Notes under the pieces: model-generated
Database searches by the model: none
Told to the model about the DNA's origin: nothing
What the model saw: only the letters and a program-made list of their open reading frames with translations
Made by a program: the position numbers and the translations under genes
Source: Sphingomonas sp.
GTDB lineage: Bacteria; Pseudomonadota; Alphaproteobacteria; Sphingomonadales; Sphingomonadaceae
DNA length: 64,000 nucleotides
Assembly: GCF_013812825.1 (NCBI RefSeq)
Contig: NZ_JACCSU010000070.1
Coordinates: 1 to 64,000, forward strand
Direction of reading: 5' to 3'
Part shown: piece after piece, positions 12,837-13,358 of the stretch
Layout of the letters: each line of letters begins with the position of its first letter
Numbering within the stretch: the first letter of the stretch is position 1

Positions 12837-12853
12837 CTTGATGCCGCTGCAAC
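12837..12853. repeat. 17-bp direct repeat, left copy
   Basis: CTTGATGCCGCTGCAAC occurs here and identically at 13342-13358, on the outer sides of the two inverted ends of the DUF559 unit. The copies differ immediately on both sides, so the identity is exactly 17 bp. This looks like a target duplication or site-specific recombination footprint and would leave a short divergent promoter region if the unit were removed. Confidence 0.75.
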
Positions 12854-12860
12854 TTGACTA

Positions 12861-12927
12861 ATCCTCCCTTCGAGCGAAGCTCGTGGGGAGGGGGACCATC
12901 CACCGAAGAGTGGATGGTGGAGGGGCC
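12861..12927 (+). repeat. Left structured inverted end of the DUF559 unit
   Basis: This 67-bp end shares three blocks with the reverse complement of 13270-13333: ATCCTCCC, TGGGGAGGGGGACC and GGTGGAGGGGCC. It can fold into two hairpins. In the first, CCTCCC pairs with GGGAGG around an inner CGAGC-GAA-GCTCG stem. The second is a 9-bp stem, ACCATCCAC with GTGGATGGT. The stem sequences differ between the two ends while pairing is kept. The GGAGG near its inner edge also supplies the ribosome site of the nuclease gene. Confidence 0.8.
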
Positions 12928-12930
12928 AGC

Positions 12931-13296
12931 GTGCGAGCTACTCGAAATTCAATGCGAGCGGCGCGCCAGCAGCGGCGTGCGATGACTCCTCCCGAAGTGC
13001 GGTTGTGGGGCCTGTTGCGCCGTTCGCCTGCAGGAATCCGTTTTCGTCGTCAGCATGCAATTGGCGGCTACGTCGCAGACTTCTACTGCCCGGCAGCCAG
13101 GTTGGTAATCGAGGTGGATGGCCAGATTCATGACTCGGCAGACGCTGTCGCGCGAGACGATGTACGGGATCATTATCTGCGGGGGCTTGGCCTGCAGGTC
13201 GTCAGGATTCGGGCGGCCGACGTGCTGGCCGATCCGACTGGCGTAGCGGACAGCCTCACTCGTCTGTGTGGCCCCTCCACCACTCAGCATAGCTGA
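12931..13296 (+). CDS. DUF559 (Vsr-like) endonuclease-domain protein
   Basis: A 121-residue protein with the DUF559 core: an Arg-rich N-terminus with LWGLLRRSPAGIRFRRQ, then YVADFYCPAARLVIEVDG, whose Asp and Glu-x-Asp match a PD-(D/E)xK-type nuclease site, followed by H in DGQIH and a closing VVRIRAADVL helix. The family is related to very-short-patch-repair endonucleases; its cellular role is not established. The GTG at 12931 is chosen because GGAGG of the left inverted end lies 7 bases upstream; an ATG at 12952 is an alternative. The last nine codons lie inside the right inverted end. Confidence 0.85.
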   Translation: MRATRNSMRAARQQRRAMTPPEVRLWGLLRRSPAGIRFRRQHAIGGYVADFYCPAARLVIEVDGQIHDSADAVARDDVRDHYLRGLGLQVVRIRAADVLADPTGVADSLTRLCGPSTTQHS

Positions 13297-13333
13297 GCGG
13301 TCCCCCTCCCCACCGCTTCGCGCCAGGGAGGAT
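13270..13333 (-). repeat. Right structured inverted end of the DUF559 unit
   Basis: Reverse-complemented, this end repeats the three conserved blocks of 12861-12927. Its first hairpin keeps the GAA loop on a shorter CGC/GCG inner stem. Its second hairpin is ACCGCTCAGC with GCTGAGTGGT, one G-T pair, quite different from the left copy in sequence but paired in the same place. It contains the 3' end and stop codon of the nuclease gene. Confidence 0.8.
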
Positions 13334-13341
13334 GAGGGCTG

Positions 13342-13358
13342 CTTGATGCCGCTGCAAC
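13342..13358. repeat. 17-bp direct repeat, right copy
   Basis: Identical to 12837-12853 (CTTGATGCCGCTGCAAC). It lies 8 bp beyond the right inverted end and about 37 bp upstream of the SCP2-like start codon, in that gene's probable promoter or leader. Confidence 0.75.

Follow-up and report, generated by a model that had tools for sequence, protein, structure and literature searches.

We report a compact inserted unit in a Sphingomonas genome, consisting of a DUF559 nuclease gene between two structured, inverted ends, and consider it likely that the unit is the autonomous member of a mobile repeat family organized in two tiers, whose spread is driven by the nuclease. The unit lies in the window, the whole 64,000-nt stretch of contig NZ_JACCSU010000070.1 that was analyzed, between two genes that the original prediction named as aldehyde dehydrogenase and SCP2-like (Table 1). 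That prediction described a minimal mobile unit with a Vsr-like nuclease as its only protein, and it is supported by the existence of empty sites and by the presence of such ends at DUF559 genes elsewhere. We infer that the DUF559 nuclease itself mobilizes the units.

Table 1. Features of the inserted unit, in window coordinates.
Feature	Position	Strand	Remark
Left 17-bp target duplication, CTTGATGCCGCTGCAAC	12837..12853	.	Perfect; single copy in relatives' empty sites
Complete inserted unit, 488 bp	12854..13341	.	Missing from the interval in seven relatives
Left structured end	12861..12927	+	End type also scattered across the genome
DUF559 (PF04480) nuclease gene	12931..13296	+	121 aa; GTG start inferred
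Right structured end	13270..13333	-	Inverted copy of the left-end type; includes the gene's TGA stop
Right 17-bp target duplication, CTTGATGCCGCTGCAAC	13342..13358	.	Perfect; single copy in relatives' empty sites

The predicted 17-bp direct repeats are perfect on both sides (Table 1), and the three inverted blocks ascribed to the ends are common to both, with 15/15, 14/14, and 11/12 complementary bases. In the left end the order is ATCCTCCC, an outer hairpin, GGGGAGGGGGACC, an inner hairpin, and GGTGGAGGGGCC. The claim that hairpins are retained in both ends though their arms differ was borne out by folding as single-stranded DNA, which gave two hairpins per end and outperformed shuffled sequences for the left end (z -4.8 on the plus strand and -4.5 on the minus strand) and for the G-rich strand of the right end (z -3.6), but not for its C-rich strand (z only -1.7). 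The ends had also been credited with supplying the gene's ribosome site and stop codon. In agreement, GGAGGGG at 12919-12925 occupies the expected position and, judged from the sequence, is probably the ribosome site of the gene, whose start at GTG 12931 is our choice in a frame already open from GTG 12883, and the TGA at 13294-13296 is located inside the inner hairpin of the right end.

We looked for the aldehyde dehydrogenase/SCP2-like interval in 41 congeneric genomes and extracted stretches from 20 of them. As the original prediction had anticipated, empty sites exist: the unit is absent from seven stretches (G185, G180, G171, G170, G181, G183, and G163), each with one 17-mer-like sequence (CTTGATGC..CGCAAC), the remaining 13 being left uncounted because they had no clear 17-mer or, in three cases, about 2 kb between the flanks. 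Seven empty sites with a single 17-mer indicate that the unit arrived with a 17-bp duplication. A gene-less pair of ends in the window's genome (C50:27657, 111 bp) has flanks 9-27 bp apart in G185, G181, G182, G173, G172, G158, and G187 vs. 134-152 bp in the query; the pair is therefore missing in those seven congeners, an absence read from the flank coordinates, a separate alignment not placing the exact border.

As part of the predicted mobile-unit geometry, the direct repeats hold up as a target duplication at the window, but long duplications are rare at other units: besides the 17/17 bp of the window unit, we found 19/22 bp at L246 and a weaker 26-bp duplication at L225, the other units being near chance. 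Duplication scores of at least 10 were obtained for 9 of 151 units vs. 2.5 expected, and exact flanking repeats of at least 9 bp for 3 of 93 units vs. 1.9 expected; by these counts, target duplication as a general rule was rejected. The duplications at the window and L246 point to staggered breaks, and most units are without any. When 29 window-type units and pairs were compared, their flanks proved different and no common flanking sequence was seen beyond the ends, the exception being L248 and L249, which share one site. CTAG or TTAG borders several gene-less pairs of the window's genome (L005, L008, L009, and L014), which could reflect either a target preference or a stop-codon bias.

Searching the window alone for GGGGAGGNGGACC with two mismatches allowed gave two copies, a number not above chance, and the weight for non-chance ends comes from the whole genome and its relatives. 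In the 2.45-Mb genome of the window, GGGGAGGNGGACC occurs 19 times and the reversed pattern 0 times. By our reading, four copies are the ends of two DUF559 units, 11 belong to 10 gene-less pairs, three are single, and one (L006) lies in coding sequence and looks like a chance match. The gene-less copies that the original prediction proposed to look for are thus present as 10 inverted pairs. Window-type units measure approximately 440-490 bp with the gene and 110-210 bp without it. In seven gene-less pairs (L007-L011, L014, and L015), one end is of the window type and the other of a second type, GGGGAGGTGGCAGC...GACGGAGGGG or similar, and a single nuclease may therefore serve two end types. Among the pairs of opposite-facing window-type ends listed, 26 are by our reading spaced 65-164 bp apart and eight 405-453 bp apart, with none between. 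All eight long pairs contain a DUF559 gene; seven were chosen blind, in genomes known to carry DUF559 at a position not known to us, and for the eighth (G032) the position was known beforehand. None of the 12 short pairs opened, out of the 26 listed, contains DUF559. Since gene-less ends are scattered in genomes carrying such enzymes, DUF559 probably spreads the repeats.

Structured ends also accompany DUF559 genes elsewhere. In public genomes, we scored the inverted similarity of the two flanks (threshold 16) at the best 80 of 571 confirmed DUF559 loci, most of them from Pseudomonadota and a few assigned by title or placement to Thermodesulfobacteriota, Acidobacteriota, Spirochaetota, Hydrogenedentota, Nitrospira, or Chloroflexi. 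With one locus (L119) excluded for runs of N, 64 of 79 DUF559 genes are flanked by inverted ends vs. 2 of 372 other ORFs at the same loci (Fisher p 2e-60) and 1 of 162 size-matched control ORFs, which bears out the expectation that such ends are a property of DUF559 genes; 15 of the 79 score under the threshold. When loci with runs of N were kept, the counts were 65/80 for DUF559, 3/378 for ORFs, and 5/600 for random windows. The stronger of the two scoring control ORFs turned out to be a second DUF559 gene, likewise between strong inverted ends (L127:6050-6422) and situated on a Mesorhizobium contig about 0.7 kb from the first DUF559 gene of that contig. Neighboring ORFs and random windows served as the null, since DUF559 ends resemble each other and a null of swapped DUF559 loci was dropped for that reason. 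In Sphingomonadaceae, 80 of the 91 DUF559 genes examined score at least 16, but these 91 are the better-scoring matches, so that weak relatives are under-sampled; in the window's own genome, scores range from 22 to 28 for all four DUF559 genes. The two ends of one unit match each other in this set. Ends vary between units around a common plan of a C-rich arm, a loop, a G-rich arm, a spacer often with a second hairpin, and a second G-rich arm.

At four loci (L027, L029, L032, and L051), DUF559 proteins have C-terminal tails such as PNPSPARGEGL or PLPAGERG that are the translated right-hand repeat, and tails of this origin may be widespread among database proteins of the family. Two DUF559 genes with inverted ends, one between sufB and sufC (L279, NZ_CP155753.1) and one between a GatB/YqeY gene and dnaG (L278, NZ_CP155749.1), are in records labeled as Sphingomonas plasmids, yet their neighborhoods are chromosomal in appearance.

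The association of gene and ends could also be viewed from the side of the host, with DUF559 as a mismatch-repair or defense nuclease and the repeats moved otherwise, collecting around such genes or serving as terminators. Caulobacter VsrA is a DUF559 protein to which a mismatch-repair role has been assigned, with links to a cytosine methyltransferase and SOS induction described in PMC12907096. The Vsr-like fold and weak partial matches to nuclease parts of defense proteins are in keeping with such a role, and the hairpins could end transcription. However, other ORFs at the loci are almost never flanked (one of the two exceptions being DUF559 itself), a unit's two ends resemble one another, the types of end group according to nuclease clade, end spacing foretold the DUF559 gene in 7/7 blind cases, and the empty sites show gene and ends arriving together. 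We consequently regard a host function of this kind as quite an unlikely explanation.

At the level of whole genomes, DUF559 is present in 128 of 149 Sphingomonadaceae genomes and in 83 of 219 genomes sampled from the phylum, and one DUF559 query matched 40 of 72,556 records in a plasmid collection and 1 of 50,697 in a phage collection. When three end types were counted in the 149 genomes, repeat copies correlated with DUF559 copies (rho 0.70, p 7e-23; because the genomes are related by descent, this and the following p-values overstate independence and are guides only). At least three repeat copies were present in 64 of the 128 genomes with DUF559 vs. 0 of the 21 without, and window-type repeats still correlated with DUF559 after two were subtracted per gene (rho 0.49); the reversed-pattern control is invalid for one motif in this count, which is nearly identical backwards. 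Within the genus, the median number of matches was 10 in 21 genomes with DUF559 vs. 3.5 in 20 without (p 8e-5), a rough count made with a 1.7-kb query holding one gene-less pair, with its own locus counted and few candidates scored per genome. In the phylum, at least three copies of the hairpin CCCTCTCCC-N3-8-GGGAGAGGG were found in 39 of the 83 genomes that have DUF559 and in 7 of the 136 that lack it (p 2e-13), and the reversed control pattern numbered 0 among the results listed. Counts of 5-57 hairpins were recorded in seven DUF559-negative genomes, and this pattern is missing from 19 of 63 genomes with strong DUF559.

These counts also bear on the possibility that the repeats are moved by a REP-associated tyrosine transposase (RAYT) or an IS200/IS605 enzyme, with DUF559 as a passenger. 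The layout and the hairpin conservation resemble REPIN/RAYT as described in PMC2817692 and PMC3116915, and genomes with Y1_Tnp, the RAYT domain, have somewhat more repeats (at least three in 16 of 25 Y1_Tnp genomes vs. 48 of 124 others, p 0.03). On the other hand, Y1_Tnp occurs in 25 of the 149 genomes with no match in the window's own, and among the 45 genomes with at least 10 repeat copies, 30 are without Y1_Tnp and 0 without DUF559; furthermore, every one of the long end pairs opened held DUF559. Given its absence from the window's genome and from two-thirds of the repeat-rich genomes (30/45), RAYT as the mover was rejected, and we attach only a very slight probability to it.

Enzymes and ends tend to be matched across the nuclease family. 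In a tree of 180 DUF559 domains (178 different, with a few loci in both the public and Sphingomonadaceae sets), ten true window-type units form one clade with support of 100/99; eight of them were picked through their ends, their placement in the tree being free. Two other rows (L108 and L196) have the window-type label in the tree only by a one-mismatch rule. Nine end-type labels require 26 changes vs. 73.7 when shuffled, with a value as low in 0 of 200 shuffles, on a tree in which 69 of 180 rows are unlabeled, columns are few, and bootstrap support is unsettled. Seven of the labels cluster, and AAGGAT and GTGAGGG show no clustering. Among 49 distinct window-type ends, the arms of the inner hairpin form 4.1 pairs with their own partner vs. 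1.8 with swapped partners (maximum of 2.2 in 500 shuffles). In the inner hairpin it is the pairing that is conserved rather than the sequence.

In the mechanism that we propose, a single small DUF559 nuclease would recognize its cognate structured end, made up of a C-rich arm, a G-rich arm, often a second hairpin, and a second G-rich arm, and would bring about the spread of units with two inverted ends, whether gene-carrying or gene-less and dependent. The nuclease would most likely act on folded single-stranded ends, for example on the lagging strand, and may cut near the TCCTCCC border. Insertion would take place at a staggered break, whose repair would have left 17 bp duplicated at the window. 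The single-strand route is our preferred guess because the hairpins have been kept through compensating changes.

The nuclease itself belongs to DUF559 by its Pfam match (E 1.2e-25), with matches to Vsr (0.066), a mismatch-repair endonuclease that nicks T:G mismatches at a methylation site, and to the Vsr model TIGR00632 (0.038) below cut-off. It contains E22, D50, E61, D63, H67, and D76, which are invariant across a 64-sequence alignment. Its predicted structure (mean pLDDT 89.6) matched 3hrl (2.4e-5), I-Bth0305I (3r3p; 6e-5), and, weakly, Vsr (1vsr; 0.05) in Foldseek, with mitochondrial ribosome chains interspersed in the ranking, and a profile comparison with I-Bth0305I gave an E of 0.0048. 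The nearest solved structure beyond the family's own 3hrl is therefore the EDxHD homing endonuclease I-Bth0305I, and a cyanobacterial DUF559 gene has been termed an EDxHD homing endonuclease in PMC9403480. Two further frames in the unit gave no family match in a Pfam search, and no transposase domain of known kind was present among the unit frames tested. The kinship with I-Bth0305I and the lack of a known family in the other frames tested would fit a homing-type DUF559 that breaks its target, the unit then being copied in as the break is repaired, without strand transfer of the transposase kind. Units at different sites with no common flanking sequence beyond the ends, and gene-less copies that multiply, argue against such homing, which we consider conceivable but rather unlikely. 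It overlaps with our best explanation in that the nuclease remains the driver, and break-induced copying is the main rival to the single-strand route.

Spread of these repeats by DUF559 may reach well beyond sphingomonads. An intrastrand triplex motif has been reported in 3610 copies from 262 proteobacterial genomes, with 23 in E. coli MG1655 (PMC4666352). As described there, these repeats (TM/TMECO/PIT) are intergenic, lie near all kinds of genes, vary between strains, and sometimes form inverted pairs; they were tied to genome instability, for which no mechanism was settled, the text consulted names no enzyme, and the main text contains none of the terms "DUF", "endonuclease", and "Vsr". The ends studied here are like the published motif (PMC4666352) in having a C-rich arm, a loop, a G-rich arm, a short loop, and a second G-rich arm, and unlike it in that several subtypes, the window type included, fall outside the published consensus. 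TM-like arms, which may be able to form a triplex, were found in the window and in many units. The window ends are one subtype within a much wider repeat class. The earlier statement that no system of this layout has been described is accordingly right for the nuclease link within the papers searched, as no title or abstract among those listed by one open-access library connects DUF559 with repeats or mobility of this kind, but not for the plan of the ends, which is known as the intrastrand triplex motif.

In E. coli, copy 9 of the motif (Table 1 of PMC4666352) is located downstream of ycjD, the DUF559 gene of this species, at about 170 bp from its 3' end, and by our reading the 3' end of ycjD overlaps half of another triplex motif. 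The patterns tried find no motif on the 5' side, and the ycjD unit therefore looks decayed. Between ycjD and motif 9 of K-12, the 3' end of ycjD recurs as a second, diverged fragment (L065:1706-1945), which looks as though two adjacent units had arisen by insertion or duplication. Strains without ycjD were considered as empty sites and rejected, since the two opened hold regulator and efflux genes at that place, which correspond to the eef operon (PMC12817139). Triplex-like places number 1-27 per E. coli genome (median 16). At hrpB-mrcB the repeat is present or absent between strains with no clean duplication, and at alx-sstT a form collapsed to a single hairpin is found in one strain and different DNA in another. 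On our explanation, the TM/PIT repeats known from E. coli and further bacteria would be related to such units or be remnants of them. On balance, we lean toward the broader view that DUF559 proteins (COG2852/YcjD-type) mobilize an entire class of repeats, found in Pseudomonadota and beyond, whose ends form triplexes or hairpins, with clade-specific ends and gene-less dependants, E. coli TM/PIT included, and that the elements are nuclease-only and unrelated to DDE, HUH, tyrosine, and serine transposases.

Repeats of the triplex type, for which counts exist from hundreds of genomes (PMC4666352), now gain a candidate enzyme from those same genomes. They also gain a unit with measured borders and candidate cognate pairs of enzyme and end, and a specific prediction follows for the uncharacterized DUF559 family. 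If the prediction is true, the repair-enzyme annotation given to DUF559 proteins needs to be reviewed.

Among known systems, insertion sequences and their MITEs likewise combine an autonomous unit with gene-less units that have common inverted ends, and the 17-bp duplication at the window is a further likeness; they differ in that the DUF559 unit has no transposase domain in the frames tested, regular target duplications were not found, and pairing rather than sequence is kept. Homing endonucleases of the EDxHD type, such as I-Bth0305I (3r3p), have a related catalytic fold and likewise a nuclease gene inside a spreading unit, whereas the DUF559 system stands apart by its structured ends in inverted orientation, its copies without a gene, and its many sites. 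Homing copies into a single allelic site, unlike the DUF559 units, which occupy differing sites as judged from the flanks of the 29 units and pairs. Moreover, the DUF559 protein is barely more than a catalytic domain, whereas I-Bth0305I has extra DNA-binding regions (PMC3943268). The closest parallel in organization is with REPIN/RAYT, in which, as described in PMC2817692 and PMC3116915, a gene lies between two inverted palindromic repeats and gene-less inverted pairs occur, enzyme and repeat co-evolve, repeat abundance follows gene presence, and palindromes show compensatory changes. Each of these has its equivalent here: the gene is flanked by inverted repeats (64/79 and 80/91), gene-less doublets exist (12/12 short pairs opened), repeat abundance tracks the gene, palindromes are kept by complementary changes, and enzyme and end types go together. 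The flanked gene, however, is PF04480, a nuclease of PD-(D/E)XK/EDxHD type, and not a Y1 (PF01797) tyrosine transposase, an enzyme of the HUH type, and the DUF559 system occurs in genomes with no Y1_Tnp match. Because the organization matches except for the enzyme, the DUF559 system works like REPIN/RAYT but is not a member of it; if our reading is true, a Vsr-like nuclease alone can sustain a mobile repeat system that is the convergent counterpart of REPIN/RAYT.
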